Shown here one piece after another: positions 10,122 through 57,894 of a stretch of DNA of 64,000 nt (the stretch's first letter is position 1; each line of letters starts with the position of its first letter). This DNA is from Tetradesmus obliquus (taxonomy: Eukaryota; Chlorophyta; Chlorophyceae; Sphaeropleales; Scenedesmaceae): NCBI GenBank assembly GCA_030272155.1, contig CP126199.1, forward strand, positions 3,026,501 to 3,090,500, given 5' to 3'. Under the pieces are notes generated by a model. The model saw only the letters and a list, made by a program, of their open reading frames with translations. It ran no database searches and was not told the DNA's origin. The translations under genes were made by a program, and so were the position numbers.

Positions 10122-12861
10122 TCAGGCGAAGGGCAATTCGCAACAATCAGGCTGCGGTGGTGACTGTATGTGGCAGGACATGCACGTGTGCGCCAACTCT
10201 GAGTGGCCAAGTGCAGTACATGGCCAGCAACGAGACTTTATGTTCTGAAGGTGGCCAACTTGGTTGCGATATTCTCCCTGCATCGTTAGTGACACCTGCG
10301 ATGCACAACACACATCGCCTGGGCAGGGGTGGTTTGCATCAGGGACCCTTCTGCGCCCCGTTGTTGAAACGTATCATTTTCTGGATTGCTGCTGTCCGAG
10401 TTGATTATGAAGTTGGGATGCTGCTGTCCCAGTTGATTATGTATGTGCACTTTCACTGCTGTTGCTTGCTGCAACCACACCTGTGCCTTGGCTCAGCTGC
10501 AGGTCAACGGAGCACATGTGCAGAGCCAGGGGGTGTGACACACATCGGTGTGTTTGGATGAGTCATGGCCCTATCGCCCTTGTTGCTGCACCTGTTGATG
10601 CCGATTATATCAGTTACACACAGTGTCTATGCTTCCGCTGAGATGCCGCAGGCAATTATTATTTGGAAGTGATTGATGGATTGTTCATGTTGCAAGCGGT
10701 CAGTGCTCCTACCGGCTGCACAGCTCACCAGCAATTTTGTTGCATGCTTTGTGGTGCCTACGAACGGCACCGCAAAGCGTGCGCACAATGTTCCGCTCCT
10801 TCTGTACGTTTTGGCCCTGCCAGCAGCAGTCTTACTACACGTTCCCACTACGTTGCTGGCTATTAAGGGTCAATGTACTGCATCTTCAGCCGTTTTCTGT
10901 ACCCAAACAGCATGCACACAGCTCTCACAGTTGGGCTCACTGCAGCAGCGGCTGTGGCACTGCATATCACAGGGTGCGCAAGATGCGGCACCGCCAGCTT
11001 GTCCTGGTGCCTTGCGTCTGTTTGAAAAGTTTACACAGTGTTGGACGCTCTGGTGCATGTTTGTGCAGGAGCGCTTTGTGGTTTACCCGGCGGCGGCAAC
11101 TTTGCCTAAGCCTCTTTTCTTGGTGCTGCATCATGTGAGCAGCAGCAGCAGCATGTTTGTAGCGGATTACAGCGCAGGCGCTTGACACAGAGTTCACGCC
11201 TGGCTACATGCACATTTGATGTCGGTTTCTTAAATATCTATGGCACGACAATCAGTCAGCTGCCATCTGTAGAAGTGATTGAAACGAGCAGCCGCCTCTG
11301 ATGCATTTTTGTCGCGGCACTTGATGTTACAATGCATGGCATGTTGCCCTGACCAACTGCAGCGTGATATGCTGAGCAGGAGTGTGTTTCAGCGGTGCTC
11401 TTATCATCAACTGCCTTGGCAAACTTTGCCTATAAGGTGGTCTCATGGTCCATGGTTCGCCGTGCTTCCCAGTGCGTACAGTGTATACACATCAACTCAA
11501 CTGCAGAACACGCGCAGACGTGATGGCCTGCGACTGCAAGAAGTTGTGCGGTGCTGGCAGTTGCTGCTTCCATACACTTTTCTGGAGCTTGCAGCATGTA
11601 ATTCAACTCTCAGGCAGCAGGCTGCTTGGTATTGTTGCGGATCACGTGCATTAGAGGCCTGCAGGATATGCTCTCATGGCATGCGTCTGGCGTGCTGAGG
11701 GGTTGAGGCTGCTGCACATGCGCTATGTCTGACCTGCAGCTGGCTCTGAATGGCAGCAGCAAGGTAGTGGTACGACATGGTGTTGCTGTTGACTGTGGTG
11801 ACTGTAAGCTAGCGCATGAAGTAGAGGTTGGCAGGCCATCACGCTTACATGCTCACATTGCATAAAGATTCACAAAGCACCGTCCGGCATCTCCTGAGAT
11901 TTGGTCACCAAGCCTAACGTGTAACAATTACACTTGTTGCAGCTTGCCGCCAAGGTCCCCAGCCTGAGGCGATCACAGCAGCGGCGCTGCCAGCCGCAGC
12001 AAGCTCAGCTGGAGCAGCAGCCGCAGGTCGCCAATATGAAAGAAGCAGCTTGCATTTATAAGAGACAGATTGCCATTACGAAAAAGGCAGATTGCCACTA
12101 TGCGCACTTGGCTTGTTATGCCAACAGCTAGGAACTTGGATGCCCCTCGCACAGCTAGGAGAATGAACGACTGCTACTGACGCAGGGTACTCAATCCAAG
12201 CGTGTCGTTGCTCCCAGCACAGCAGGATGCTGGTTCGACGACAGCTTCACCCCATTGCTTACATGCTGAAAATGTAAACTTGATCCACTTGCTTTGCATG
12301 CGTAAAAAACTCTGCAAATTCCATGTTAAGAGCAACCTCGACCTCCACCACCAAAGCCACCCCTTGCAACACCCAGCAGGTGTGCAACGAGCTGCTGTAT
12401 AAGAACAAATTTGTCATATCAAGCTCAAATGCTGCCGCTGTTGCTGCTTAGCAGCAAGCTGCAGCTGCTACTCCTGCTTGTTCAATACGACAAATAGCAG
12501 CCAAATCACACGGCATATGCACATGCGGTCGGTCACAGCACCATGCAGCAGCTGCTGCTGCCCTTCACCCACATAACCAGCTGCAGGAACCCCTGCGCCT
12601 TCATTGCCATGACGTCAATAAGCCTGCAGCACATAAATGCTACAGCTTCCCGCCGTGTCCTGCTACTGCCTTGCCGGCATGCTGCGCCTTCCGTGTTGCC
12701 TTACGCTGTCGCATTCATCGTTGCATTGCCAGCTGCTGGCTCAGCAGCAGGCGGCGCAGCAGCCCTGTCGGCACAGCTGCACTACGCTGTCAAGCTCATC
12801 GAAGCATTGCCAGCTGCTGGCTCAGCAGCCGGCGGCAGCAGCCATGATTGGCATCGCTGCC
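10122..12861. other. Long stretch without a supported gene
   Basis: Subtilase 3' region followed by about 2.5 kb with only short open frames. There is a small direct duplication of about 33 bp near 10380-10440. No exon chain with consistent phases or recognisable motif was found. The interval 12720-12860 holds minisatellite copies that belong to the 3' end of the neighbouring minus-strand ten-cysteine gene. Confidence 0.5.
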
Positions 12862-12930
12862 TCACGCTGTCGTATTCATTGTTGCATTGCCAGCTGCTGG
12901 CTCAGCGGCAGGCAGCGCAGCAGCCAGAAT
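12720..12930 (-). repeat. Three-copy minisatellite at the 3' end of ten-cysteine gene 1
   Basis: Three near-copies (about 65-70 bp apart) of a segment that reads on the minus strand as Ala/Pro-rich EPAAGNA followed by an ACAGCGT motif. In the copy nearest the gene the motif is ACAGC-GTGAGG and in the farthest ACAGC-GTAAGG, both plausible 5' splice sites. Confidence 0.7.
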
Positions 12931-13730
12931 CGGCATAGCTGCCTCAGGCATAGGCGCCTCCGCAGCAGGAGCCCCTGCACCAGCAGCACCAGCTTCCGCA
13001 GCAGGAGTGCCAGCGCCTGCTGTGCTGCCAGTCAGCACAGGAATGACCCGTCCGTCTGCACAGTTGAGGGCTGGCGGTGGCTGGAAGTTTGTGCAGCGCT
13101 GCGCGGCGCCGAGCAGCACTGGCACGAAGGGGCGCACCTTGGCCTCCTGCTCGGCTGTGGAGTTGCAGATGGCGTTGATGAGCACGGGGATGCAGTTGTT
13201 GTCGATGATCTGGAGCAGCAGCAGCAGGAGGAGGGGGAGCAGCAGCAGCAGTAGCAGCGGGTAGCGTGAGCAAGGAATGTGCAGCCGGTAAGCAGCGGAA
13301 CCAGAGCACACAGATGGATGTGCAGCGCTGCATCTAATGCTGTTGCAGTTGAATTCCAAATTGACAGACAAGGATCATGTGCAACCAGCAATCAGCATGC
13401 AAGGTTGGGTGACAAGCAAAACCTGTCGCTGGCTCTGTCCGTTACCCAGCCCAGATTTTTGTGCCATGTGATTTGTCTGACTGCCGAGGTACATCACACA
13501 TGCGTACACACCACCACCTACCTGCTTCATCTGCTCTGAGCAGGCAGTGGAGCAGCAGCCCTGCTTCACCTCCAGGCTGCCATCAAATGCACACGTAGCC
13601 AGGCCCTGCACCTGGGCGCTGCAGGGTGAGGGAGGGCCTGAGATGATGAGGGGCGAGAAGGTGGAGATGAGGGCACCCGTTGAGTACTCCTCCTTGGTGT
13701 ACTTGACCACGGGGATGGGGCAGTCTGAGG

Positions 13731-13762
<32 letters not shown>

Positions 13763-14366
13763 AGCAGAAGCAGCAGCAGAAGCAGCAGCAGCAGAGGAGG
13801 CGATGGCAGCGAAGATACAGCAATGTGTCAGCAGTAGGCAGCGTATAGGACAAAGCACTGCAGCAGGTGCTTTGAGTTGTGGCGGAGCTAAGGGGGCTGG
13901 CTATTGATGCAAATAGAATGTGGTGGAGAAGCTGCAGCTGTATGCGGTGTTGTCTGTTGATATGTCAGCGAGTGCAGCTGCCAGAGCACCGCAATTGCTG
14001 CTGCACAGCAGCAGACGTGCAACAAGCATCTACCAGCTGCTGCTGGCAGCTGCCCGCATGAACTGTAGTTCGCATGGCGCAGAGGCGCATCTTCTGGTTA
14101 GGGAAACTAAAAAGCCTCTCAGCTTACCTGCTTCATAGCAACGTGTTCTCAACTGCATGATCTATGTGCATCTTATCTCATGTGCAGCAGCAGCAGGTCT
14201 GCTGCTGCCGTGTGCTCAAATCCTCTCTGCCGAGGGCCAAAACAAGCACACACTCACCCCCAGTAACATTTGCGACTATGTAAGCAGGGTTGTATTGGCC
14301 TCTGCACTGTGGCGCAGCAAGGAAAAGCAGTGCTGCAACGAAACTGACGAACATCTTGGCGACCAT
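12862..14366 (-). CDS. Secreted ten-cysteine protein, paralogue 1 (unknown family)
   Basis: I do not recognise the family. Three exons on the minus strand (14366-14258, 13724-13522, 13209-12862) join in phase to about 219 residues. A signal peptide (MVAKMFVSFVAALLFLAA) is followed by a module with ten cysteines: D-C-P, P-C, T-C, G-C-C-S-T-A-C, N-C, I-C, R-C and N-C. A low-complexity Ala/Pro tail follows. The same cysteine order and the 8-residue C7-C8 spacing occur in the genes at 15291-18320 and 29862-31734. Compared with them, this copy has fused exons (109 nt and 203 nt here), as if introns had been lost. The stop at 12862 lies inside a strong donor context (GC-GTGAGG), so the real transcript may splice onward to a C-terminal exon in 12540-12800. 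One phase-consistent candidate there ends near 12540. A secreted or surface role is inferred; its ligand is unknown. Confidence 0.7.
13734..13795. repeat. CAG/AAG triplet-rich tract in an intron
   Basis: Runs of CAG with interspersed AGAAG units lie just outside the acceptor of exon 2 of ten-cysteine gene 1 (on the minus strand these are CTG/CTT and serve as a pyrimidine-rich tract). Confidence 0.6.
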
Positions 14367-15290
14367 GTTGCCGACAGTATCACAAATAAAAGCTGAGGCA
14401 AACCTAAAGACACAGTAATCCGCTCTCCTGGAGTCTCTCTCTTGTCTTTATCGGTGGCCGAGTGCCCTTGCTGGTCATCACCACCCTACCTTGGACAAAA
14501 CGGTACTCGTACGATGCGCGTGGCAGGCAGTTGGCGACAGGCTGCGTTTGCCGCCCACAGCACGTAAGCAATCGAGCTGTTCTGTAAGTCTTGGTTGAGT
14601 TTCAGCTTCGCAACGGGACTCCCTAAGCACGGCACTTCAACCTGGTCGATGCCGCAGCTGGCATGCAGTGCTGCAGTTGGATGCAATAACAGATGCAGGC
14701 AAAACTGCTGGGCCGGGGCCTGCTGCATAAGTACGTGTCAATGTGTAACACACGAATCCGGCGACAAACATACGCAGCTTGCTAGCTTTGACAAATCAAC
14801 GGCACAGCTGGCGCATCACAGGAAACACATGCCACCCTGACAACCCTCCACAGCCGTGCTGCGCCATGAACACATAATCTTGCACATTGCCATGCGAGCT
14901 ACAGCAACAAGTGCAACTCTTAGAACAGCAAAGGGCTCGTACGTCCCAAACCAAGCTTCAAATAGCCTATCACCAACCTGCCAATTGGATTGATTGCAAT
15001 CAAGGCGCGGCCGCAAATGCGCTAGCCCGTCCCCCCTGGTAACAACAGAGTGCGCTAGCCCGGCCTCTTTGGGTGCTGCCACGCACAACATCAGCACCTA
15101 GAAGCATGCTATGCCGTAACACAGCAGCAAGCTTGAAACGAGCAGCTCATGCACGCATTATTGCCCATGAATGCACACGCCCGCCACTCATGCTCACAGG
15201 CACCTGCACCCATCGCCTGCAGCTCAAACTGCGGCTCTGGCAAAGCCACAAACCACAAACTCTCTAAACCACAGACTCTTCCAACACCGC
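14367..15290. other. Spacer between ten-cysteine paralogues 1 and 2
   Basis: Lies upstream of paralogue 1 and downstream of paralogue 2, both on the minus strand, so it should contain the promoter of the first and the 3' end of the second. No further exon chain was supported. Confidence 0.5.
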
Positions 15291-18200
15291 CTAGCTCAAC
15301 ACCGCTGTCAACAGCAGCATTGCTGCTGCAGCTGCCCCAGCGCTCCAATGGCCGATAAGCAGGCTGGTGCTGCTGCTGGATGCAGCTGCCCGTGCTGCTG
15401 GTGCAGCAGGTGTTGGTGCTGCCCTGTCTTGGTCAACAGCTGCTGCAGCAGCAGCAGGTGGCGCCAAGCCCTCGGCTCCCGGCGGTGTGCGTGGCTCAGT
15501 GCTGTTTGCTGCGCTCGCTGTCTTGCTGCTGTTCATAGGTGTAGGTCCAGTGGTGTTGCCTGCAACCACGGATGTAACAGCAAGCATGGTATTGCGTGAT
15601 TTGGGAGCAGCTGATGTGAAAGCAGCACACCTCACGTGGGCCCTGAGACCGCGGATAACCAGGGCAGCAGCCAATCGTGGTTGTGTGCTAATGCTGTGAA
15701 TGGATACTGCGGATAACCAGGCAGTAGCTACTTGTACCTGTGTGACAATGCCTTCAGCGGAACCGTAACCAGGCAGCAGCTCTGAGCGTGAGTCAGCGTA
15801 GCTGTGTGCCAAAGCCTTGGAATGGCTACAATCAGCTGCTGCCTGGTTATTTGCGGTCTTAGGATCAAAAAAAAACTGAGCATGTGCTGGACAAGCTTGC
15901 GGTGGACACACAGGCAGTGCCGCAATGCAAGAATCAGCGCTGCACTCAGAAACTACACAATAATTGCACAGCACACTGCTCTGCTGTGCTTCATGCACAC
16001 CTTGCAACAGCGCAACATGCGGTGCTTGTGCCTACGTTTCCGCACATAGGTGTGTAACTGTGCATTTTACTGTATTAACTTGTCCTTTTACGTACACTAC
16101 AGCAGCAGATTCCACCGCAACTCACTTGTAACGATGGCCCTGCGGCTGCCGTTGCGGCGGGCCGCTGCCTCGTCAATCTCTTCAGGCGTTGCCAGCACGA
16201 CAGCTGAGGAAGCGGTCTCCACAGGCCTCGGCACGAGAGGCATGAAGGGATCAGGTGCTGCATAAGGAGCAGCCTCCTGAGCTGCCAGAGCAGCTGCAAG
16301 CTCATTCATACCAAAGCTGTTCCCCACAATGGCACTGCCGCTGCCCCTGCTGTTACTGCTGCCTGCGCTGGTGCCGCTGCCGCTGCTGCTGTTTCCTGCA
16401 GCGGCGCCTGTGCTGTTGCCTGCAGCGACCCCTGTGCTGTTTCCTGCAGCGACCCCTGTGCTGTTTCCTGCAGCAACCCCTGTGCCACTTTTAGCCTGCT
16501 GCTGCTGCAGCTGCTCCTGTGGTGGCGTTGCTGCAGTGATGTTGCTGCCGTTGCCAGCACCTGCGGTGACTGTTGAGGCATTGAGCAAGTCACCAGGCTG
16601 TGACAGCAGCTCGCAGGAGGGTTGCAAGCCCAGGCAGCGCTTGGCAGCACCAAACAGCACGTGGGAAATGGACTCGCGGATCTCTGTGCTGTTGCACATC
16701 ACCTGCATACATCACATGCCATGTTACGAGTAGTTCAGCATGCCAACATATGCACTTCAATCAGATTTGGTGCTGACATGCCATGTTACGAGTAGTTCAG
16801 CATGCCAACAGATGCACTTCAATCATGCCAACAGATGCACTTCAATCATGCCAACAGATGCACTTCAATCATGCCAACAGATGCACTTCAATCAGATTTG
16901 GTGCTGACATGTAAGGGAGTGCTGCAGTGCTCACCTGAGGACAAGCCCCACTATGCAATACATCCATTTGTTCTTATACATATTTCAAAACATGTGGTGA
17001 TATGCTGGCAATGCTGCAATATGCTGCCTGCTGCAGCTCACCTCGATGAACTCCCTGTAGCACTGCCACCCGCTGCTCACCAGCGCCTGGCATTCGGAAT
17101 ACACAGCATTCAGTGCAGGCAGCGCTTGATCCGTGCATCACAACCCAGGAGTGTTTACCTAGTGGTGGGGTGCTGGATGCTGTGCAGGGGACATGCAGAT
17201 CATGATGTTGCTGCTGCTGCATGCTGCTGCAGATCAGCCCGGCTTGCGGTTCACCTGGAACCTGCTTACACAACAATGGCACAGTTACGGCATGCACAAC
17301 ATGCATTGGCGTGCTGCAGCGGCCTCACCTGCTGCATCTTGCCAGCACAAGCTGTGGAGCAGCAGCCCTCCCTGACCTGCAGGGTGCCGTCTGCCGCGCA
17401 GTCGGTCAGGTTGGGCACTGCCCTGGCGCAGGGGCTGTCCCTGCTGCCCTGGCTGACCATTGGCGTCATCAGCCCAAACAGCTTGTCCACTGCACAAGAG
17501 GTTGTTTGCAATGCACGACACACAAAATAAGGTAGTAGTAAGCACGAAATGCATGTCAGCATCTGCGTGCGCCCTCACTTCAGGGAAGACGCAGCGCTGG
17601 ACCATATCTGGCGTGTCGCACTTCAGATCTCCGCAAGCAAACAGCATGCAACGTGTGCACATTGCGAGGCGTTGATCGGCTGACAGCCAAGCTGTTTCGG
17701 CTGGCGCACTCCCCCGCCAGTTTGACTTGCTGCATTGGGCATGATTCGCTGCGTGCTCTTGCTCTTGCTGGCTGTGCCTTGCTGCTGTCTGCTGTCATCC
17801 TGCAGGGCTGCTGCTGTCATCGCTGATGCCATGTGGAGCATGAACTGGTGCGACCACCGCTCGCATTGCAGCAAGCCGTAGTAACCCACCGCTAAATTCA
17901 TCCGGTGTGTAAAGGGTGGTGTTGACAGGGCAGTCTGCGGCAGCAAAGCACAGTCGTGTGTTCAGCAAAGTTCGCAGCCTGGCACAAATGTCAAGTGCAG
18001 CCACCAGCAAAGGATGTGCGATCGCAACGGGCGATGTAGCGCCAGCAGCATGGTCAAATGTCGTACCTTTGTTGACATCTTTAACAATTCTGGACGGATC
18101 CACCTCTCCTTGACCTTGGGTGGCAGCCTGTGCATGCAGCAGGCAACCGGGAGCTGTCAGTTGCTGCTACAGTGATGCTACTGCGGCCATGGCAGCCCTG

Positions 18201-18320
18201 CTCGCGGAATATGTGCACTAGTTTCGTGTCGATCGTGTACAGGGCAAAGCTGTATCATGGTTTGTCAGGATGTCAGCTCACCAGCAATGCAAACAAGCAT
18301 GCTAGCAGAAATGGCTGCAT
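15291..18320 (-). CDS. Secreted ten-cysteine protein with GPI-like tail, paralogue 2
   Basis: I do not recognise the family. Seven minus-strand exons join in phase to about 415 residues: 18320-18282, 18127-18067, 17934-17890, 17489-17329, 17086-17042, 16702-16126, 15610-15291. A short signal peptide (MQPFLLACLFALLAA) is followed by the ten-cysteine module: D-C-P, P-C, D-C, G-C-C-S-T-A-C, Q-C, M-C-N-S-T, K-R-C and S-C. Then comes a Gly/Ala/Asn/Ser/Thr linker with four 8-residue repeats (GVAAGNST type) that supply N-glycosylation sequons. The last exon has more Asn/Thr/Pro-rich linker and ends in a hydrophobic tail (AGAAAAAMLLLTAVLS) typical of a GPI-attachment signal. If the last intron is retained, the frame stops at 16097 after WNLLL and loses the tail. 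A glycosylated, membrane-tethered surface protein is inferred. The 61-nt and 45-nt exons match paralogue 3 exactly in size. Confidence 0.8.
16385..16490 (-). repeat. In-frame 24-bp repeat encoding GVAAGNST units
   Basis: About four copies of a 24-base unit inside exon 6 of ten-cysteine gene 2. Each copy adds one N-S-T or N-S-S sequon, so copy number would set the number of potential N-glycans. Confidence 0.8.
16739..16912. repeat. 23-bp tandem repeat inside an intron, nested in a larger duplication
   Basis: Four to five units of ATGCCAACAGATGCACTTCA plus 3 bases, flanked by two copies of a longer segment (AGATTTGGTGCTGACATG and its upstream partner). It lies in the intron between exons 5 and 6 of ten-cysteine gene 2. 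Confidence 0.85.
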
Positions 18321-18851
18321 AGCTTGATCCCTGTCCTACTGCGCGTCCTCCGTCCGCTGATGTCTGACCATCGCATGCCAAAAGTTGTTCGGCGACCCGC
18401 ATTGCCCCAGCCCATCCTGCAGCCGGCCCTGATGATACCGTTCGAGCGTCGACAGGTGGAGGACCCAACCGCCATCCAAGGATCCAGCTGGCTGTCCTAC
18501 TCACACATACTCTGACAGCTTTGGCACACGTCACTCCTGACACAAGTTTGGCACCTTTACTTTCACTAGTTTTTTGCATCAGCTGTCGCTAGGGTTTGGC
18601 TTCGAGGCTATCACAACGCAATGGAATTGCTCTGCGAAAGATAGAAAGAAATATGTGTTCCAACCATTTGCTTGGAGTTAGGGGGATGTAATGTTCGAGT
18701 TTCGCGACAATCCATACTGCTCAGCAATACTGCTTCAGATGCGATAGCCACAGCAATAAAGGCCACAACCCCCCAGTTACAGCAGTAGTATGTCCCATGC
18801 TTAGCCGTGGAGGCTAGCCCGTAGCTAGCATGCAAGTCCAACAGTAGCAGC
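18321..18851. promoter_or_regulatory. Divergent intergenic region (ten-cysteine gene 2 / SPATA17-like)
   Basis: About 530 bp separate two start codons facing away from each other, so both promoters must lie here or overlap. No TATA-like or other box can be assigned with confidence. Confidence 0.45.
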
Positions 18852-21800
18852 ATGGCGCTGGACAGGCTCAGTGCAGCAGCTGCCAGGGCAGTGGACGAGT
18901 ACTATGAGAGGTGCAGGTGTGCCAAGTTGAAACTGAAAGCCACTTAAATTTATATTAAGGGTACTGATGCTGGTCTAACTGCGGCACCATTCGTGCAGAG
19001 CTGCTGAGCAGCACAGGAAGGAGGAGGAGCATGCTGCAGTGGTGCTGCAGTCATGCTGGCGTGGTAAACTGCAAAGACACGAGCTTCAAAAGCTCAGGTG
19101 TGAGTCAATGTTTGCACTGTGCCCTGCAGCATTACCAGCAGCAGCATCAGCCTTGCTATCAATGCTATCGCTGCTGTCTTGGTTCTCTGGCACTGCACAC
19201 GACAGCGCTGCGCGCGATACATGACAGCACATACTGCTGAGCTGCCTTGCTGTGTTACTGCACTTTTTTGCTGTGTCAGTCATGTAGCCCTGACCATTCA
19301 GCGCTGCTGGAGGGGCTATCTAGGCAGGCAGAGATTTGCTGCTGCTCGGTCAGCCAGAAACACGCAGCTGCGAGAAGTAAGGCTAGAAATATGGAACTTA
19401 CAGCATGTAGTTGCTGCAGTCAGCCCAGCACTCAAGTGCACCAGAAACCAGGCTGCAGCAGCAGTGCAAGTGCAGCAGTACTGTGTGCGCAGGCTTGCTT
19501 TGTCGTAACAGCAGCACTCCATCAAGCATGCAGCAATGCACGCGTGACTTCTGGCATCTGCGCAGGGTGTACTGCAGTTCAGCATCCACAGGCGTGCTAT
19601 TCAACTGCATGCCACTGAGGTCCCGCCTTTCAGCTCATGCATGTGCTGCTGCTTTTGCTGCCGCTGCACCAGGCTTACTTCAATCACCAGGCTACAGTGA
19701 TACAGAATTGCTGGCGCGGCCACTTCAGCAGGAGCAGGGTGCATGACTTCTACAAGCGCAAGGCATACCTGGCGGCTGTAGCAGCGGCGAATGCGGCTGT
19801 GCGAGCTGGCATGGCAGCGGAGCTGCAGGAGGCGCTGCAGCACCAGCAGCAGCAGGCGCAGCAGGCAGCCAAGCAGCAGTTCGATGCGCAGGTGGGCATG
19901 CGCTGTTGCTGCTTTTGCTCTGGTGTGGCGGTGTTTTTGAAGCGGAGGGTGCATGTGCTCTGACTAAACTGCAGGATGCAGCGTTGGTTGTAGCGGCATG
20001 CAGCTGCCTCTTTCTAAGGCGCACAGGCATATTAGGCATCGCAACAGCAGACAAGCAGCTCACCCAGCTGGAGGAGCGTAGCCTTGCACAGTGCACGCAT
20101 GTGCTAGCCTGGAGCTGAGCACAGCCTGCCGCCGCAACATTAGCAGCAGCGCCGAGGCAGCCGTATGATGCTGCTCTGTGACTTGCTGGTGCTGCGTGGC
20201 CGCAGGTGTCGCGCCTGCACCACCTGGCCTCCACAGGCTGCAGGCCTGGCATATTTAGCAGCCAGGTAACAGCAGGCGGTGCAGTGCGGGTGCCTGCTGT
20301 GGTGGCTGGGCAGCCGCTGGAGCAGCACCTGAGGGCTGCTGCCAAGCAGCAGGTGAGGCAGCGCTGCTTGTCCTGCAAGCAGTGTCTGGCGGTTGTGGGC
20401 AGTCACAGTGCTGTCTGCAGTTGAATGCTACAAGAGCGTGCATGCATGCCAGCGGCAGCCACAGGAATGGACTACAGCAGTTGCCACATCAAGTTGACCA
20501 CAAGAGGAGGGCATGTTGCAATCCAGCAAATGGTGTAAGGGTGTTTTGCCTGCCACACAGCACCACGCCTGACGTCTGATGCACTTGTGTGGTGTTGCGA
20601 TTGCGCTCTGCAAGGCTGCCGGAACAGTGAAGCAGCAGCAGGAGGCGATGTGGCAGACCATACACAGCAGCGCGTCCGCCACAAGCAGCACAGCTGGCTT
20701 CAGCTTCCCTGCAGGTTCAGCGGCAGCCAGGGCAGCGTCAGCAGCAGCAGCAGCAGCAGCAGCGGGTCCAGCACTCAGCAGCAGCGGCGGCGCTGCAGCA
20801 GCAGGAGAGCACCTGCCTGCGCAGCTGCGGCCCCTCAGTGGCATGTCACTGCCGGCATCCACGCTGTACGCTCATAGCGCCGGCAGTGTGAACGGCGCGC
20901 TGCGGGGTGTGCCAGCTGCCGGCAAGCTGGCTGCTGCTATGATGGCGTCTGTGGACGACTGGTATGCTGCGCGTGCTGACGCCAACATGCCGGATGGTAG
21001 CTTCAACCCCAGCCTGACATTGCAGCAGAGCGCGGAGTATGAGGCGGTGCGGCAGGCGGCAGGGCTGGAGGGGCGCATTAGCAGGGGCCTGGTGGGTGCT
21101 GCGGCGATGTGCAGCTGTGAACATGGAGTTGCAGCTGTGTAGCAGCGGAGTTGCAGTAGGGCCATGATGTGACTGGTGCTTGTGAGGGCGTCGCATGTGT
21201 ATGCATGTCAATTGGGCCAAGCGTGCAGCGAGTATTGCACAGTCTGCAATGCTTGCGGCGTGTCTGTGCAGAAGAGTGCAAAGGTTAGCAGGGTATTGCA
21301 GCGGGGTTGCAGAAAAACATCCGCTGCTACACAGCTGTTACCATGATGGTGCACTGCAGTTGCCGCGGCATCAACAGCCTGTTCACCAGCATGTGTGCCC
21401 CGCCCCATTGGCAGGTGTCTGCAGCATCTCCCGCTAACGTTACTTATAGCAAGAATGATGCCAACATGACTGTGCTGTTGCCGCTGCTGTTGCCGCTGCT
21501 GTTGCCGCTGCTGTTGCCGCTGCTGTTGCCGCTGCTGTTGCAGATGTTGGTGTTGCACGATGGTCAGCCGTTCAACAACATCACCAAGCCTGCTCCAGGC
21601 ATGCAGCCATCAAGCCCTGGTGGCAGCACAATCACAGCGCCGGCCACAAACAGCAGTCAGGAAGCGGAGTCAAGCAGGTCACCTGTGCAGTACCACGGTG
21701 GTTCTTGGGGCAATAATGGGCAGCTGTCGCCTGGGCGTTTAGTTGGTGCGCAGCAGCAGCAGATGGCGCGCACAGCAGGCAGCCCCCAGCACATGCAGCA

Positions 21801-21873
21801 AGAGCAGAAGCACTGGCAGCACAACAAGCATGCAGGCACGTTTTTCAGCAAGCACTTGAAGCAAGCGTCTTGA
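18852..21873 (+). CDS. SPATA17: SPATA17-like IQ-motif ciliary protein
   Basis: Seven exons join in phase: 18852-18910, 18999-19097, 19280-19376, 19673-19891, 20206-20352, 20615-21091, 21415-21873 (about 518 residues). Three IQ calmodulin-binding motifs stand out: VVLQSCWRGKLQRHELQKLR, TIQRCWRGYLGRQRF and VIQNCWRGHFSRSRVHDFYKR. The third is followed by KAYLAAVAAANAAVRAG, which parallels the Y-L-K-V-V-x-x-x-N-x-A-I-R region of vertebrate SPATA17, and a later LHHLASTGCRPGIF matches its L-L-S-T-x-x-x-P-G-I stretch. The spacing between IQ2 and IQ3 equals that of the vertebrate protein when 19377-19672 is treated as one intron. The C-terminal half is Ala/Ser/Gln-rich and weakly conserved. SPATA17 is known as an axonemal, calmodulin-binding protein, so a ciliary role is inferred. 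The last exon encodes an odd (LLPL)n stretch that could instead be intronic. Confidence 0.84.
21474..21542 (+). repeat. 12-bp tandem repeat (CTGTTGCCGCTG)n
   Basis: About five perfect units inside the last exon of the SPATA17-like gene. If translated they give LLPL repeats. Because the run ends in TTGTTGCAG it could alternatively be the 3' tract of an intron with acceptor at about 21542. Confidence 0.85.
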
Positions 21874-22405
21874 AACTGGTAGCCACTGCTGGGTCAAGGG
21901 TGTGGTGAACTTGGGCGACTTCGCACTGCGAACTAGGAGTGTAACTAGTTACTAGGTACTAGGCAGGAGGATTGTTGGGTCCTAAGGCATCGCTGTCGGG
22001 CGTACTGAGGATTCGCTTTGAGGTTCGGATAATAATATTACAGCGAAAGTTAGCGGCGAAGAAGTTTTAACAAAATGTAGGTGCTTGTGCGAACATGTGG
22101 CGGGCCATGCCCGCCCGTCGAGATATGCACTGCAGAGCGCGTGAGAGCGGGCCTGAAACATGGGACTTTCAACAGCAAAACGTGTTTGTTACATTTCTGC
22201 GAGCAGAGCAGTACGTGAAGGCTGTCTCTAACAGTATATTCCCGCACCACAAGTCCTCCAACCTGCAGCCTTCGTAGTGCAGACACCACGCAGGCTTTAA
22301 GGCACTGACGTCTTTCACACCATGCATACCAAAGCCTTTTCGCCGGCCGATCTCTCCTGAAAGCCATCGTCAAGGAACCGGAACCCACCTACAGACGCAG
22401 CTGAA
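21874..22405. other. Intergenic, no supported gene
   Basis: Between the SPATA17-like stop and the phosphate transporter start, both on the plus strand. It should contain the transporter promoter. No PHR1/PSR1-type site is claimed, because I cannot distinguish one from background. Confidence 0.5.
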
Positions 22406-24003
22406 ATGGCGTGGACGGTGAGCACTTGATTTCTGGGGCACTATCTTACCAGCGAAGCCTTAAAGAGTTGAAGCGCAGTCCATCGAATCCTCGCGAGCGA
22501 TGCTGTGTCATGTGGCAGCGCCGACACCTGGCAGACACTGCAACATCGGTCTGCGGAGTTGTGTTAACACTGCTCCCCGTTTCCTGCTGCAGGAGTACAC
22601 ATGGATGATCGTGATCGTGAGTATATGCGGCAGTGTGGCGGCTGCAGCTGGTGAATCCGATGGCTGCCGTCTTGTCGTGGCTCACGTGCATTTGCTTTCT
22701 ACGAGTACTTGTTACGCGCCCCTGCCCACTATGACTTGTATCACTTGCTAAACTGTCAAACAACTTTGTTCTTGTTTGCAGCACGGCATTGTTGCCTGGC
22801 TGGACGCATATGGCATTGGTGAGCATCTGAGCAGTGGCCAGTGATCACAGGCTGTAGCCAGGGAAAGCAGTAGTGGTTTTATGATGTATTCAAGATGATA
22901 ATTACCTGTTTTGTAAGGAAAGCAGCAGCGGTTGCATGCCTGCACGCTGACAGCTGGTGCAGATCCACAGAATATTGTAGCCGTTTCTTGCAGCCAAATG
23001 CTGACACCAACCTGCCGCTGCGTGTGTGCTTTGCAGGTGCCAATGATGTTGCCAACTCCTTTGGTGAGTTGGAAACCTTCTCTGCCAGCTCCTGCAGCTT
23101 TCTTGCTTTACTGTACTTCACAGTGACTTCGTGCAGTGCGGCTCAGCACTGCACGAAGTCACTGTGAAGTACAGTAAAGCAAGAAAGCTGCAGGAGCTGG
23201 CAGAGAAGGTTTCCAACTCACCAGCGCCGCACTGCAAGCACCACTTTCTCAGTATGCTGTAGCTATGATTGAGTGGCGGCAGCTCTGCAGCCAACAGAGC
23301 CAACGTATGCAAGGGTATGCAATAGGGTGGACTTTTGAGAGCTGCTGCTTGCTGTGTGCTGGTTACTGAAAGTCTTCCTTGTCGTCTATCCCTGCAGGTA
23401 CCAGTGTGGGCAGCAAGACCCTCAAGCTGTGGTCAGCTGTTGTCATTGCAGGAATCTTCGAATTCCTGGTGAGCTCATCTGCAGCGCAGTGATTGTTTTC
23501 ACACATTGCATTCCTTGTGCACAGCTTCTGCTGCCTCGGCTCGTCATCAACCAAGGAGCATGTACAGAGCAGCAGCGCTACAGGTTCCTTGGATCAGAAC
23601 ATTCAGAGCTCCGTCAGCACTGGCACCCCTGTTTGCTCTTTTTGCCTTGTCCCTCACTCACCAGCACCCCACTTGCTGCGCATTCCTGCAGGGTGCCATG
23701 ACCCTGGGCGGCCAGGTGACCAGGACCATTGCCGGTGGCATTGCCAGGCCTCAGACCTTTGCCAAGTTCCCGGCCCTGTTCATGTTCGGCATGCTTACAG
23801 CAGAGACCGCCGCCATGATCTGTGAGTGCTGCTGCTGCTTGGCTGCATCCATCTTACCTCACAGCACTGTCTGCTCCGAGTTACCGCCAGTGATGCATGC
23901 AAGTGGTTCTGTCGCCAACGCGCACTGCCGAACACTGTTCCTCCTGCTCTGAGCATCCTTTAAACATGCCCTATGTTCTGCAGCTGTGCACACAGTGGGC
24001 TAA

Positions 24004-24040
<37 letters not shown>

Positions 24041-27000
24041 AGGGATCCTGCTGGCCACCTACTGGGAGCTGCCAGTTTCCACCACCCACTCCATCATCGG
24101 AGGCATCATCGGTGAGTGCTGAGTTGTCGCATGCTGCTGAAACCTAAACAGGGGTGCTGCAGAGGGCATCTGTTCTTGCTTGCTTGCCTGCCTTGTGCTG
24201 TCGACCACTGAGTGACAAACAGCACGTGCTCATTGCATCATCTGTACAGCCGCCAATGCCACCACGTCATCCGGCTGCATCACACCTTCTCTAACACCTG
24301 TGTTGTTTGCCTCTGCTGCGCACATGCTCCCCACCGCCAACCGCCTGCAGGCTTTGCCATGGCCTTTGGTGGCGCCGGCGCTGTGTCATGGTACGAGCCC
24401 CGCCCAGACTTCCCGTATGTGCGCGGCATCGCGCCCATTGTGGTCTCCTGGTTCCTGTCCCCGCTGCTGGCCGCGCTCATCACACTGGTGTTCTTCCTGA
24501 TTATCCGCACGGTCGTGCTGCGCCGCCAGAACAGCACCAAGATCGCATTCTGGGTGCTGCCCTTCCTCATCTTCTTCACCATCTTTGTCAGCCTGCTGTT
24601 TGTGCTGGTGAGTGCGGGAATGAACTGCTACAGATTGATGTGCCGACTCACAGCCTGCTGTTTGTCCTGGCGAACCAGATGGTGGGCTCGCCTGGCCAGC
24701 AAACTGCAGCAGCACGCAGAGTCCTCTCCCTGCGCGGCCACAGATCTCCTCTGCCCTCCATTCTGTATGCTTGTTGCCGCCACCTGTTGAGGTCTTCTCC
24801 CTGACGCCTTTCGATCTCTGTCCGCCGCTTCCTCCCACCCGCAGACCAAGGGTGTGTCTGCCGTGGTGAAGATCAAGACCGAGAAGGCCGCGTGGCTCGC
24901 CGCAGTCTCGGGTGTCGGCGCTGCGGTCATCGGCACTGCCGCGCTGTGGCCGCTGATGAAGCGCATGGTTGCAAAGTACGACCGCCAGCACGGCGGCAGC
25001 AAGGACGCCAGCGACATTGTGATTGATGCCGGCGGCAAGTTCAAGGATGTGGAGGAGGATGAGTTCCAGAAGAAGGTGAACAACATGCTGGCTGCTAAGG
25101 AGGTGGACCCCAACGACAAGTCCATCGGCGCATACTTGACTCGCTTCAGGTGGGGTATCGGCCATGCGATGACTGCGCTTCACTTGCTTCAGGGTCGATC
25201 GCACTTGATTGCAATAGCTAGTGATTGGGTTGGAAGATGTTGGCGGTGCTTGCAGCCAGCGTGCCCTGCTGTTTCTTGAGTGATGCACACTACCAGCTGA
25301 GTACGGCTGCTGACTTCTGCTGTCTGCTGCCGCTTGCTGCTCTTTCTGGCCTCACGCATTACATCCATGCTGACGTGAAGCTTTCAACATCGACATGCAT
25401 GACTCTGGCCACCTGTGCTGACGTTTGGCTGCTTACTTCTGCTTGCAGGAACGCTGCTCTATCTGGCCTCACGCATGACATCCACGCCGACGTGGAGGGC
25501 AATGACAAGATCCAGGAGATGCACGACGACGCTGAGAAGTTTGACCCACGCACAGAGGAGGTGTTCAAGGTGCGTTACAAAATGCGTCACTAACACAGCA
25601 AAGGCAGGCCTTCAGCATTAACCGGGCATGAAGCACATGTGTGCTTGTTGCCATTCCTGCAGCTTGCCTGTGTGGAGCTTGCTGATTCCCTCAACACATG
25701 CAGCGCGCGCTGTTCCCCTGCAGCCTGTTCAATTGGTGTGAGCAAACTGACAACCACCATGCATTGTCACTTACACATGTTGCTAACACATGTTATTTGT
25801 TATTACTTGTGCTATGTTGTGGCCTGCAGGTGCTGCAGGTCATCTCCGCATGCGCCATGGCCTTCTCCCACGGAGCCAACGATGTGGCCAACGCCATCGG
25901 CTCCTTCGCTGCTGCCCTGATGGTGTACAAGACCTTCAAGGTGCCCTCCTCCAACAGGTGAGCCACTTGCGTATTCTCCATCGTCTGCAGATGTTTGTCG
26001 AGCTGTGATTTTGGTGTGCTGGCTACCGCAGTGCAAGCATTGATCAATTTGCAACCCCTTTGTGTCGTATGTTCGTGGCCGCTGGGACTCGACCCTTGAC
26101 GACTGCCCAGACTTCACAAGCACTCTCGCGACACCACCTGATGAAGCACGCGTAGCTGCCAACCATTTCTTTCGCGCAATGCCCTGCCCAACATGACACA
26201 CCTGCAACCGCCTGTTCTGCAACATTTTGCTACATCCTGCAGTGACACCGAGCTCTGGATCCTGGCTCTGGGAGGCTCTGGTATCGTGGTGGGCCTTGCC
26301 ACATACGGCTACAACATCATGCGTGTGCTGGGCGTCAAGTGCACACACATCACACCTTCTCGCGGGTGAGTGCGGCTGCATCTCAGCTGTCTGCAGCTTG
26401 TAGTAGACTAGCTGTGCCAGTTTCAGGTGGCAGCGCATGAACTGGCATGACTGACACCAGCACACAGCACTGCTAACAGACAGCTACTCTGCTGTCGAGG
26501 CACCACCTGACCCGTGCCCCTGTGTTGGCTGTTGCTGCTGCTTGCTGCTGCCAGTTTCTGCATGGAGCTGGCTACCTCCTTTGTGATTGCAGTGGGCTCA
26601 AGCTTCGGCCTGCCTCTGTCCACCACCCACACCATCACCGGAGCCACTGCTGGTGGCGGTGTGGCTGAGGGCCGCTGGAAGGCACTCAACTGGCTGCTGT
26701 ATGCCAAGATGTTTGCTGGTGGGTTGAACCTGCTGCTTGTAGCTTGCAGGATGTGCTTCGCCTGCATGTGTCGAGAAATACATTTTGGTGCGGCTTCAGC
26801 TGCCTTAGCTTGTGCTGCATCCCGCCATGTGTTGAGCAACCCTGATTGTGCTACCGCTGTAGTTCTACTTGCTGCCGCTGTGCTGATAGTTTGCTGTGCT
26901 GCTGTGTTGCTCCTGCAGGCTGGGTCTTCACCCTCATCATCACTGCCGCCATCTCAGCAGTCATCTTCCTGCTGGGCACCCACACTCCCTCCCAGCTCGA

Positions 27001-27253
27001 CCAGGCGCAGCTGCGCAACTACCAGGAGTCTATGCTGCAGCAGGGCAACCAGACCCTGGCGTTCCTGGCTGAGGAGAACAACAACCTGAAGCCCATGAAC
27101 ATGCCGCTGATGGACAGCATTGTGGAGCTGGGCACGCAGAACAGCGACCTGCTCGAGAGCAAGCTGTGGCTGCCTGCAGAGAACGTGACCAGCAACTTTG
27201 ACAGCGTGCAGAGCCTGCTGATGAACTTCACCACCTTTGCAGTGCCCAAGTAA
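22406..27253 (+). CDS. PTB: Sodium/phosphate symporter, PiT/PHO4 family (algal PTB type)
   Basis: Fourteen exons join in perfect phase to about 600 residues: 22406-22417, 22593-22616, 22782-22818, 23037-23063, 23398-23468, 23692-23821, 24043-24111, 24351-24607, 24845-25149, 25449-25569, 25830-25957, 26243-26365, 26555-26718, 26919-27253. The two inverted PHO4 halves are plain: [10 protein letters not shown] near residue 25 and [10 protein letters not shown] near residue 366, each followed by an S-T-T-H motif ([22 protein letters not shown]). Multiple hydrophobic membrane segments flank a central hydrophilic loop of about 140 residues (exons 9-10, rich in Lys, Asp and Glu). The C-terminus is a hydrophilic domain of about 90 residues after the last membrane segment. 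It should import inorganic phosphate with Na+ at the plasma membrane, as for Chlamydomonas PTB proteins. The first four exons are very short (12, 24, 37 and 27 nt). Intron 4 starts inside a perfect palindrome. Confidence 0.97.
23062..23223. repeat. Perfect 78-bp inverted repeat with 6-nt loop at a 5' splice site
   Basis: Arms 23062-23139 and 23146-23223 are exact reverse complements, loop GGCTCA. The left arm begins two bases before the end of exon 4 of the phosphate transporter and contains the GTGAGT donor. In RNA the donor would be fully base-paired in a 78-bp stem. Confidence 0.97.
24009..24042 (+). repeat. CTG triplet run ending in a splice acceptor
   Basis: (CTG)n of about 11 units runs directly into the CAG acceptor of exon 7 of the phosphate transporter, a clear case of a triplet repeat serving as the polypyrimidine tract. 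Confidence 0.85.
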
Positions 27254-29861
27254 ACCTTGAGCGCGAGCAGAGTGTCCCAGCGACACGGATATGCGTTGTG
27301 TGAGCATTTGATTCCGCGTGCGAGACAGCGCATTTGATTCCGTGTGCGAGACAGCGGAGACGGCGTGTGTGAGACGCATGCTCGTGGGTTGGTTGCCTGC
27401 CAAGCGTGGGTGCTGTGGGTGCTGTGGATGCTATCAGCAGCATGGAAGCCACGAGCTGAATCCAATGTGAGCACACAGGCGATATTTTGTCAGTGGTGCG
27501 CAACAGTGATTTGCTAGTTGCGCACGTCATCCTGCACGCCCGATCAAGGCGGTGCAAGTGACATCAGATGCAGCGCCTGCTGCGATCCCATGGTGTTGAT
27601 GCATGCATGAAGCACAATCCTACTTGTTGCTGCATGTCTGTCAGGTTCATGAAAAGAAAGAGGGTACATCTGGCCGAGCGCAGTGTGTTTGTATCAGCTG
27701 CGAAACTAATCCCAGGGCCCAGTGTCAGGTGGTGACCAATCCTCTTGGGTGCTCTGCAAATAGAGACTGATTCAATGCAGACAGAGCAGTCACTTGCTCT
27801 GCAGCCACTTTCGTGGCACAAGGACAGGGGTGCTGCTTTTCAGCTTATCACAACACAGGTGGTGTTTGTGCACAGAGATTGTTCAGAGTTTCAGATACGG
27901 CTGGGTTCTGTGTGCTGCGCATGCATATTATTGAGCTGCAGTTCCTTTCGGTCCTGCAGCACATCAACCCGATCCCTGATACACCTGGCTTCCGCGCTTA
28001 AGGGTGTGTGTGGTGCGAGCACCTGCTGTGAGTGCCTCGCTTGCCCATGGTTTGCATTCTATGTCGGTGTGTGTTTTGGTCAACAATTGTGTGACCATGT
28101 CCGAGAGCAACCCAATCCGACTGCGAAGGGAGTGCGTGCATGTCACAGTGCGAGTATATGCCGTCAAATGCTTGAAAGGTTCAAAGGGATAGAGATGGAG
28201 CATACGTCGGCACTGCTGCTGTATAACGGCCGTCAGCATGCCACCACATACTACATTAGCAGCTTTGAGAGTCGGTGGGCTCAGGTGGTCAATTACAATA
28301 GATCTACTTCATATACTAAAAGTATGGATGGCATGCATGGCTCTACGTATCCAATCCTATGCAAAAGTAGTGTTGTGGGCCGCGCTCGTAGCAGCTTACA
28401 CAGCATGGAAGCGGGAATCGTAGACTTTCATGTCCCAACACAGGGCATGGCAGGTCGCGGCTCGTCACACTTTGTTGCGAATGTCCAGCTTCGTTTGTGG
28501 CATTCTCAAATTTGCTTCAGGATGCAGCTTGCTCAGCAATTGCTGCACACTAGGTTGGAAGGACTGTTGTTTTCCAGGTTCTGCGCTGTTGACTCTGTCT
28601 CTCATATCCACAATCGAGCACAGCCTGCCGTCTCTCTTGCAGCACATGGACTTGTGGCGCTTGCTGCTTGAGGTCTGAAACTGCATCATCAGCAGAGGCA
28701 GGCCTACGCGGTGCCTGTCAGGTGTTGGTGGATGTTTCACAGGCTAGGATGGTGCACAACACAGGAGTTGCGCATGCACTGCTACTGTTCCTGTTCAGAT
28801 GCTGTGGCACACCAGCCACGATCGGGTGCAATCGATTCATTGCATGTAGCCCACCTCTCCAAAAGCATCCGCGGCTTGCCGGCAGGATGGTGCTGCACTG
28901 TGAGCATGTCGAATAAACATGGGTGGGGTTGAGGGCGAGTTGTACCGCGTCACCCAGTCTGCTGGTGTTGCGCATGCGCGTGGTTGCTAAGCATTGCTGA
29001 CTTGTGGTCAGCTGCAGCGCTTGATGCCCCACGGCTGCTTGTTGCATGCCAAGAGCGTGTGCGGGTGTTGCCACTGTTTGTCATGCTGAGGGCGATGGCG
29101 CTATGGGACAGCTTGATGGTAACTTTCTGACGACAAAAACGCCACTGCTGTCGCCAGTCTGTGCCTTGCAAGTGCACTCGCTTGATTTTCAAGCAGCTCT
29201 GCTGTACCACAGCAGACACTGTTACCTGCATGCCACCGTGACGTTGAACCTCTTGACACTGATATGTGTGTCAGCCGCTGACAATGTGCGGCAATGTCGT
29301 CCGCTGATACTTGGCCTGATGCCTGGATGACTGCAGATGTCACATACGTAAGTTACGTTGATTATGTTACACAACATGAGCACTACCTGAGCCGCTCAGC
29401 GCGAGTCGCGCCAATGGCAGACTCATTACGCAACCACCAGATTGGTTGAGCAGTGTGGGCTGCTACCATGCCACAGTCAGGCGTATAAGAGTGTCCGCCA
29501 TCAGCAAGCAGTCCCGGTATTAAACCATAGGGCGGGTCATACACTGTACAGGCAACAAGTGGTACAGCGATAGCTATCGCTGCCTATAGGCAATAAAATC
29601 GATTAATGCTAGATCGCCACATTCAGGCCATCATAGCACGACAACAGCAACAGGAGAGCCTGCCTGCCAGGCGGTGCCCAATGGGCTGTGCCCCCAGCAA
29701 GCTAGCCCCCCTTGAGCTCCGAGCAACATTTTGGTGAAGAACACCTCAAAAATGACAGCAACACATCCAGCAGCGCTGATTCGCAATAGGTGTGCTGCGC
29801 AGCACGCATGCAAGCCGCACTGCGGCAGCAGCCAACCCACTGCTGTGCTAGGCAAGCCGCC
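27254..29861. other. Long stretch without a supported gene
   Basis: 3' region of the phosphate transporter, then about 2 kb with no exon chain I can support. A short direct repeat (CATTTGATTCC..GTGCGAGACAGCG, about 27 bp, two copies) lies at 27303-27356. An uninterrupted plus-strand frame runs 27745-28671 (308 codons) but has no motif, no repeat bias and no splice support. The 29340-29640 part is richer in A/T. Convergent with ten-cysteine gene 3. Confidence 0.5.
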
Positions 29862-31734
29862 TCACAGCACTGCCAGCGCCAGCGCAGCAGCTGCCATCAC
29901 AACAGACACGCAGCTGGCAGCAGCCATGCTGACAGCGCTGTTCTTCTTTGGCTCTGGGGAGGTAGCTGGAGCTGGGGATGCTGCTGGTAGCTCTGCACTC
30001 TTAGCAGCCACTGCTGTGGCATTAGCGCCCTTTGCTGCTGCTGTGGTGGTGGTGTTGGATGCCTTGGTGGTGGCATTGGCCTGCAGAGCAGCCAGCGTGA
30101 AAGCGGATGACAGGAGGTGATGATAGGGCGGTAGTTGCAGCAGGGTTGCAGGCACAGGAGTAGTAACAGGCATTCAAGTCAAAGGCCGCAGGCTGCGCGC
30201 AGGGCAACTGAACAAACATACAAAATGCATGAGGGAGGATCTGGCAGTGCCGCTGTGCAAACACTAAACACAGAGTGTGTATAACTTGCTGGCGTGTGCT
30301 TCTTACCGGGCATGCAGCAACGTAGTTGGCGCAACGCTTGGCAGTGTGCGACCTGCAGCACAACAACACATGCAGCAAGGCGCAAGATGGGTCAGGCAAC
30401 ATCTCCTCACTGGCACATGCATACGCGCTGTGCAGACTGTACTGGTGTTGTGCACAGCATCCTTGCGCATCGTGATGCGATGCAGGTCGTGCAGTAGAAG
30501 CTGCACAATGCAGCATCTATGCTGCTGCTGCAAGCAATGCAACCCGCATTTCAACGCTGCTGCTCAACGCAATTGTTCAGGTTACAGCTGTATGTGTGCT
30601 GAACAGACTCGTCACGCATTCGGCCTAGGCACTCACAGGCCAAGCTGCACGCTGGCACTTGCAGGGTCCTTGCAGATGGCTGTGGTGTACTGTGCAAAGC
30701 AGCCAGACTTGACGGACTGCAGCGGCAGCAGGCAGCAGAAGCAGCAGCAATGATCTTGTCAGCGTGCATTGATCACCAGGCTATGCAAGCGTACTAGCGG
30801 GCGTTACAGCACAGCTACTATCATGGCACGCCCAACAATGCTGAAGACACAGCTTCCCACACGTACTTTGTGCTGTGGAAACATTGTAACCAGTCATAGC
30901 GGCTCTTCCAACATGGGATGTGTCTACAGCTACGCCGCCACAGCTATCACAGGTTGCAACAATGCCAGTTGCAGCTCCCCAGGTATACAGCTCACCTCCT
31001 CAAGGGCAGTAGCGCAGGCCTTGCTGCAGCATCCAGTCATGATTGCCAGGCTGCTCATTTTGTCGCTGTCGGTGTAGCAGTTGATCAGCTGCTCAAAAGC
31101 TGCGGTGCGGCACTTCTCAGTGACATCCGGTGTCTCCAAAGCGGTGCCCAAGCCCACCACGGCGGTTGCTGTTTAGCAGCAGCAGAGAACAGAGGGATAA
31201 TCAGGTCTTTTGCAGATTGTGAGCAGCTGCTTTGTGCTGTTGGCAGCATGCTGCAGAGCGCTGTGAGCTGGCATGACAAGCAGGCAAGCAGCTGCCTTCA
31301 TGTAACACTTGAGCAGCGGTTGCTCGCGAGAGTAGCAGCAGGCATACACGTCAGCCACATACAGGGAACCACTCACGATCGAAATCCTTGGGGTCAAATG
31401 CCACGCTCTTGACGGGGCACTCTGCGAAAGGAAAGGAAGTCAGCAAAGTGCAGTGCAGTGATAGCAGTGCACTGTGCTGATCTGCTGGTGACAACAGCAA
31501 GCAGCGAGTCGGAGTGTCTGCTGCTACAACCGCTCACTTGCAAGGTCTGCTACGATCAGAGTCTTGTCATAAACTGCCGGAGCAACCGCTGCAGAGGCCT
31601 GCAGGAACAAGCAGCGGCTCATGAGCAAATGGTCCCGACAGCTGGTGAGTCTGCTGCTGCGCTGCAGCCTGCCGACAACTCACAATTTGAGCTGCAACGA
31701 GCAATGCAAAACAAATGTATTTGACGGATGCCAT
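29862..31734 (-). CDS. Secreted ten-cysteine protein with GPI-like tail, paralogue 3
   Basis: I do not recognise the family. Seven minus-strand exons join in phase to about 224 residues: 31734-31684, 31598-31538, 31421-31377, 31168-30996, 30716-30637, 30352-30307, 30080-29862. A signal peptide (MASVKYICFALLVAAQ) is followed by the ten-cysteine module: K-C-P, K-C, N-C, G-C-C-S-K-A-C, G-C, I-C, K-R-C and A-C-P. Next come a short Asn/Thr/Ala linker with several N-x-T sites and a hydrophobic C-terminus (MAAAALALAVL) suited to GPI attachment. Exons 2 and 3 (61 and 45 nt) have the same length and phase as in paralogue 2, though the protein sequence has diverged. A Cys-containing open segment (LPCAQPAAFDLNACYY, minus strand near 30210-30170) lies in the last intron. 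I could not join it in phase, so it is left out. Surface tethering is inferred. Confidence 0.8.
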
Positions 31735-57136: not shown

Positions 57137-57894
57137 TGCTGGTGGTGTGCGGTGGTAATGCTAATCCTTCGAATGGTGTGCTGGACTCCAGTGGAGGTTG
57201 CTCGTTGATGGTCATCCAATGACCAATGTTTGGGAGTGGGATCGGCAGGATATCAGCAGAGTAGCAGCGCACAGCAGGATTTGTATATATTAGCTGGCGT
57301 GTTGACACTTGCTTGGGACAGCAATGTTGCTGGGCAGCACGCATGTGCTGCTGCACATATTGTGCGCACGTTGACACAGCAGCCGGTCAGGCAGCATCTC
57401 AGAATTGTCATGTGCAGCCTGTGCTTGGCAGGCTGCAAGCATCTGTCCAGCGCCAGTGCCCGCGCGCAACAGAAAACCAGCTATGGGCTCTGCGTGCATG
57501 ACGGGGCATGCTGTCTGCTACTGTACATGAGTGCGCACATGATCAGCTGCGCTCCGGCCCCTTGACATGCATGCTGTTGATAAGCAACATCCAGTGGCCA
57601 GCAGATTTTAATGGTGTAGTTGTTAACCCGGTGACGAGAAGTGCACGGCAGGCATACAGCATTGATGGGCGTCGTACTGCTGGCAGCCGCACGTGATAAT
57701 TGAATCACTATGTGACAGTCCTACTTCCCAGCTGCATCCTGCTGCACGCTCAGTGATACCGGTTTTACAAATTCTTGCAGCGTCTTACAGTGCTTCTCTT
57801 TTCGTTCATAGCAGGGTTGGTGGGCACGTGAAGCCACCCGCCAAGTTGCTTATCGAGCATTGCATCAAGGGCACCACGCAGATCGGACGGGAAA
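57137..57894. other. Intergenic, no supported gene
   Basis: Between the unrecognised plus-strand gene and the cysteine protease start. Presumed promoter of the protease; no element can be named. Confidence 0.5.

Follow-up and report, generated by a model that had tools for sequence, protein, structure and literature searches.

A local family of three ten-cysteine genes, probably for surface proteins, in the green alga Tetradesmus obliquus

Three gene models on the minus strand

A 64,000-nucleotide stretch of the Tetradesmus obliquus genome (GCA_030272155.1, contig 9, CP126199.1, positions 3026501-3090500; hereafter the window) carries three genes, P1, P2 and P3, which are predicted to encode secreted proteins with a common module of ten cysteines. 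They had been proposed as local paralogues (the original prediction), and we rebuilt their models from the raw sequence at the coordinates first proposed:

12862..14366, minus strand: P1 (paralogue 1), 219 amino acids (aa), three exons (14366-14258, 13724-13522, 13209-12862)
15291..18320, minus strand: P2 (paralogue 2), 398 aa with a long stalk, seven exons (18320-18282, 18127-18067, 17934-17890, 17489-17329, 17086-17042, 16702-16126, 15559-15291)
29862..31734, minus strand: P3 (paralogue 3), 224 aa, seven exons (31734-31684, 31598-31538, 31421-31377, 31168-30996, 30716-30637, 30352-30307, 30080-29862)

After splicing, each gene forms one unbroken frame from ATG to stop. All 14 introns start with GT and end with CAG, and the donor reads GTGAG in 10 of them. 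P2 and P3 have their first four introns in common, with phases 0, 1, 1 and 0 and at matching positions relative to the first cysteine (C1) and the C-C-x3-C stretch of the module. As had been described, two small exons of 61 and 45 nt agree in size and phase between these two genes and are merged into neighbouring exons in P1:

18067..18127, minus strand: 61-nt exon of P2, phase 0 to 1
31538..31598, minus strand: 61-nt exon of P3, phase 0 to 1
17890..17934, minus strand: 45-nt exon of P2, phase 1 to 1, containing DCP
31377..31421, minus strand: 45-nt exon of P3, phase 1 to 1, containing KCP

The two introns of P1 correspond to the second and fourth of P2 and P3; the first and third are missing, which we read as intron loss in P1. 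Beyond the fourth intron P2 and P3 diverge, the fifth being of phase 0 in P2 and of phase 2 in P3. A codon model, for which a single 774-nt Rtf2 open reading frame (ORF) served as training set, favoured the proposed frame in 15 of the 17 exons. This support is weak because the training set was one ORF, every whole-gene score is negative and the best reverse frame of P1 lies just 10.6 bits lower.

Some repeats and one alternative open stretch lie in or next to these genes. An 80-nt tandem repeat (12697-12946; 3.1 copies, 80% matches) runs across the stop codon of P1; three of its copies bring a stop of their own (TGA, TAG, TAA), and the first of these, that of P1, overlaps a donor-like GTGAGG. 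The fifth intron of P2 holds a 23-nt tandem repeat (16801-16894; 4.1 copies, 100% match). In the last intron of P3, around 30085-30215, there is an open stretch with several cysteines including CAC, which was left out of the model as visual inspection revealed no good donor.

It is conceivable, though in our view quite improbable, that the models are partly wrong, with exons misjoined (above all those of the P1 and P3 tails) or with one copy decaying. The donor-like sequence at the P1 stop inside the repeat, the alternative stretch in P3 and the two exons of 17 in which another frame scores better would fit such errors; the retention of ten cysteines and of every join in frame across three diverged copies argues against them. 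As far as can be judged from the genome, the three models and their paralogy are confirmed, and P1 to P3 represent a real gene family.

A conserved module of ten cysteines

The same ten cysteines follow each other in identical order in all three proteins and span 114-118 residues from C1 to C10:

13060..13724, minus strand: ten-cysteine module of P1, C1-C10, one intron inside; spacings 32, 9, 11, 0, 3, 11, 8, 23, 10
16613..17934, minus strand: ten-cysteine module of P2, C1-C10, introns inside; spacings 33, 9, 11, 0, 3, 14, 8, 19, 6
30310..31421, minus strand: ten-cysteine module of P3, C1-C10, introns inside; spacings 32, 10, 15, 0, 3, 11, 8, 18, 6

Taken together, the spacings are 32-33, 9-10, 11-15, 0, 3, 11-14, 8, 18-23 and 6-10. 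The pattern given in the original prediction holds overall, apart from its x(8-10), which in fact is x(9-10). The strict sub-pattern C-x(8,11)-C-x(10,16)-CC-x3-C matches four times within the window, and three of these matches are P1, P2 and P3; the fourth (57379-57468, minus strand) is likely due to chance.

For each of the three pairs, in global as well as local alignment, the observed score was reached by none of 2000 full shuffles and by none of 2000 shuffles in which the cysteines were kept fixed; with fixed cysteines, z ranged from 6.5 (P1-P3, global) to 19.0 (P1-P2, local). Judged by these alignments, the homology of P1, P2 and P3 extends beyond their cysteines, and together with the in-frame splices and the shared exons it bears out the proposed paralogy. 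P2 is 42% and P3 25% identical to P1. The proportion of synonymous differences (pS, 0.56-0.67) exceeded that of nonsynonymous differences (pN, 0.42-0.52) in all three pairs, which indicates old duplicates under some constraint. The homology has its weak points: in whole-genome searches P3 finds P1 at E=1.31 only, and P2 retrieves P3 at E=0.94. The cysteine sub-pattern, moreover, is not rare by itself, with 32 matches in 60 random windows (about one per two).

Signal peptide, stalk and C-terminal end

All three proteins start with a strongly hydrophobic segment (15-mers with a mean hydropathy of 2.07-2.33), in agreement with the signal peptide that had been proposed. The low-complexity tail was recovered as well: the content of Pro, Ala, Ser and Thr in the tail bodies amounts to 60% in P1, 54% in P2 and 72% in P3, with 7, 15 and 7 Pro-Ala/Ser/Thr dipeptides and 2, 11 and 3 N-glycosylation sequons, respectively. 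Arabinogalactan proteins are commonly recognized by a mark of 50% Pro/Ala/Ser/Thr. With a cysteine module joined to a region of 54-72%, P1 to P3 all show the domain architecture of chimeric arabinogalactan proteins.

A simple rule for glycosylphosphatidylinositol (GPI) signals was passed by P2 and P3 and failed by P1, so that the predicted two of three GPI-like ends were found again; at a hydropathy of 1.8 or more, 14 of 641 control frames also pass this rule.

15291..15362, minus strand: C-terminal hydrophobic, GPI-like stretch of P2 including the stop codon, mean hydropathy 2.34
29862..29930, minus strand: C-terminal hydrophobic, GPI-like stretch of P3 including the stop codon, mean hydropathy 2.82

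The family probably consists of two tethered members, P2 and P3, and a released one, P1. Surface proteins with GPI signals are common in this group of species; a total of 432 were predicted in S. obliquus AS-6-11, where GPI-linked wall proteins were also proposed as flocculation proteins (PMC7590803). Such a proposal, together with the long glycosylatable stalk of P2 (a tail of 251 aa), would suit an adhesin or a structural wall glycoprotein whose module binds wall glycans or itself, in cell-cell contact, coenobium formation or mating. We regard this role as unlikely on present evidence, the Pfam scan having matched neither a lectin or fasciclin domain nor any further domain for adhesion.

Search for relatives

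The genome of this assembly has been described with 104.70 Mb, 17 contigs, a GC content of 56.5% and an annotation of 15,224 genes (PMC12571836). As T. obliquus genomes are already annotated, P1 to P3, called undescribed in the original prediction, may be listed there as hypothetical proteins. Our own searches covered 104.66 Mb in 17 contigs. Two CtpA exon pieces of this genome agree with the D1 protease of Scenedesmus obliquus (PDB 1fc6), one without any difference over the 54 residues that start at GAAKQQ and the other in 89 of 89 residues. At single-exon sensitivity, at which diverged, intron-split copies could escape, no fourth copy was detected. Eight weak loci outside the window (L012-L015, L057, L058, L059, L061) turned out to be frame-broken or to lack the pattern when all three frames of the respective strand were read. 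The DNA pattern GGNTGYTGYNNNNNNGCNTGY proved uninformative in this CTG-rich genome (526 forward and 510 reverse matches), and almost all of the 44 matches of a DNA search with P2 fell on the low-complexity stalk.

Outside the genome, Pfam (E up to 10) gave no match for P1 and implausible ones below the cut-off for P2 (first 165 aa; RSF, E 0.31) and P3 (zf-RING_6, E 0.023). A similar sub-cutoff match of the family consensus to Arm (E 0.014) was dismissed. None of the three proteins matched NCBIfam, the profile search of the PDB returned nothing credible (a single ribosomal protein at 0.27, which we attribute to chance), and viral and prokaryote contigs contained no relatives. No account of the family was found among the literature matches listed, a search that left most subscription journals outside its scope. 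In the three databases Pfam, NCBIfam and PDB, no named family covers the module, and by these comparisons P1 to P3 are a small family of old paralogues that has no named relative there.

Among algae, cysteine-rich surface proteins that are orphans occur commonly. P1 to P3 could be distant members of a known helical cysteine-rich family (the prolamin superfamily including the EC1-type Prolamin_like proteins, GDNF/GAS1-type or other) that a profile built from three sequences only is too shallow to reveal. The prolamin superfamily has a loosely similar order of cysteines (C, C, CC, C, C), and this resemblance is all that links P1 to P3 to Prolamin_like/EC1 (PF05617). Against such a hidden kinship, which we consider doubtful, Pfam yielded no family of this kind at E up to 10, PF05617 included, and none of six weak genome matches to PF05617 falls on P1, P2 or P3; five of the six (L074-L078) were read as chance.

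Gene neighbourhood

The original prediction had placed the family around a phosphate transporter and a SPATA17-like gene. Between P2 and P3 (18400-29800), where 61 of the 120 ORFs listed were scanned, PHO4 (phosphate transporter) matches occurred in four ORFs and an IQ motif in one. The proposed neighbourhood is supported in part; the IQ motif is consistent with a SPATA17-like gene and does not prove it. An ARAGORN call of a tRNA-Gly just past the P2 stop (15188-15273) is probably false, Rfam at its gathering threshold being silent throughout the window. Elsewhere, we observed a strong Rtf2 RING-finger match (35200-36045, plus strand, E 5.2e-47), a match to the cathepsin propeptide inhibitor domain I29 (58394-59029, plus strand, E 2.9e-08) and a weak sub-cutoff match to a subtilase (7754-8377, Peptidase_S8, E 0.0024).

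A putative binding module at the membrane-wall interface

We favor, with a probability slightly above even, the explanation that P1 to P3 are old paralogues from one family of chimeric surface proteins and bind something in the wall of T. obliquus. The proteins would enter the secretory pathway by their signal peptide as predicted by simple rules, and the module would fold extracellularly, probably with five disulphides. In the manner of chimeric arabinogalactan proteins, it would be borne on a presumably glycosylated stalk that is rich in Pro, Ala, Ser and Thr and contains N-glycosylation sequons. By the same kind of rules, P2 and P3 are predicted to be tethered to the plasma membrane by a GPI anchor, and P1 would be released into the wall. 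Where membrane and wall meet, the module may serve as a binding domain, with building or organising the wall as its most likely role.

This explanation draws on the shared intron positions and phases, the in-frame splices, the homology beyond the cysteines and the excess of pS over pN; on the hydrophobic N-termini of all three proteins, the stalk composition with its sequons and the GPI-like ends of P2 and P3; and on the frequency of GPI-signal surface proteins in this species group (PMC7590803). For a disulphide module that is carried on a glycosylatable stalk between membrane and wall, a part in adhesion or in assembling the wall suggests itself. The confidence we place in this explanation overlaps with that given to the alternatives.

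Several observations weigh against it. The models are known from genomic sequence alone, and secretion and GPI anchoring were called by simple hydropathy rules rather than trained predictors. P1 has no GPI-like end, nor is there a GPI-like last exon downstream of it up to position 9000. The gap between pS and pN is modest.

The T. obliquus wall is resistant and contains algaenan (PMC5908957; PMC11839794), and the wall proteome of S. obliquus 633 has been published (PMC11839794). P1 to P3 are concrete candidate genes for the membrane-wall interface and for wall assembly in an alga with such a wall. Lacking a match in Pfam, NCBIfam and the PDB, the module may represent a small new domain to solve.

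Comparison with lipid-transfer proteins and other known systems

The original prediction had likened the architecture to GPI-anchored plant lipid-transfer proteins without their C-x-C motif, and both halves of this statement stand. With the land-plant non-specific lipid-transfer proteins (nsLTPs) of type G (LTPG), among whose GPI-anchored members the xylogen-type proteins are grouped, P1 to P3 share the predicted signal peptide, a cysteine module with a C-C pair, the low-complexity stalk and, in two of three cases, the GPI-like end. In contrast to type G nsLTPs, they lack CXC and any profile similarity, carry introns inside the module and have ten cysteines, of which one of the two extra ones follows four residues after the C-C pair and the other lies about 32 residues ahead of the rest.

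The nsLTP motif C-Xn-C-Xn-CC-Xn-CXC-Xn-C-Xn-C is absent from P1 to P3, as none of them contains CXC and C-x8-C stands in its place. Neither the proteins (P2 as its first 165 aa) nor their consensus matched an LTP family in Pfam at E up to 10, whereas a hand-typed LTP-like sequence, used as positive control, matched PF00234 at 3e-7; hhalign with the shallow three-sequence profile gave a probability of 0.4% over 8 columns against plant nsLTP1. In an exon-wise and hence insensitive search of the genome, PF00234 found nothing and PF14368 gave two sub-cutoff matches, both profiles being silent in 14 control genomes. Around the better PF14368 match (L021, 17.2 bits) the sequence is rich in repeats, and no LTP gene could be read there. 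By their sequence features the proteins do not belong to the nsLTPs, but they may still work alike.

A lipid carrier resembling GPI-anchored nsLTPs, the module of which shields an acyl chain and hands hydrophobic wall precursors, for instance algaenan monomers, to the wall, is a tentative alternative that we judge unlikely. It would be in line with the type G architecture of signal peptide, cysteine module, stalk and GPI end, with the binding of C20-C24 fatty acids by the algal CrLTP2 (both PMC9832785), with the algaenan of the host wall (PMC5908957; PMC11839794), with the C-x9-10-C that precedes the C-C pair and with the two helices modelled for the last-third fragment of P1 (predicted local distance difference test, pLDDT, 61; all fragments were single exons). 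The missing CXC, the two extra cysteines and the lack of a profile match speak against it, as do the low pLDDT of 41 for the first-half fragment and the amphipathic-helix test, which gave no consistent signal (z > 2 in two of nine segments, both from P2). Going further, a chlorophyte ten-cysteine scaffold could do the work of GPI-anchored LTPs in Scenedesmaceae and carry long-chain algaenan precursors through the periplasm to the outer wall; this would be a long shot. To our knowledge, no export machinery for algaenan monomers has been described in green algae. If true, such a carrier would parallel, by convergence, the export of cutin and sporopollenin by land plants.

Green-algal nsLTPs of types AI and AII, such as CrLTP1 and CrLTP2, have been described in a survey that selected for the eight-cysteine motif (8CM) including CXC and lists 35 species, T. 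obliquus not being among them (PMC9832785). As CXC was required, the family of P1 to P3 would have been missed in this way. Like the proteins reported here, for which secretion is predicted, CrLTP1 and CrLTP2 are secreted, larger than plant nsLTPs and interrupted by several introns within the module, and they too are encoded by neighbouring head-to-tail genes; in Chlamydomonas the two genes, with five introns each, lie side by side in one orientation (PMC9832785). They differ in carrying the 8CM with CXC. Finally, AstaP and the GPI-anchored wall proteins of Scenedesmaceae are secreted, as is predicted for P1 to P3, and come from the same family of algae. AstaP has fasciclin domains in contrast to the ten-cysteine module, and provides a precedent for a secreted protein that binds carotenoids (PMC8234090).

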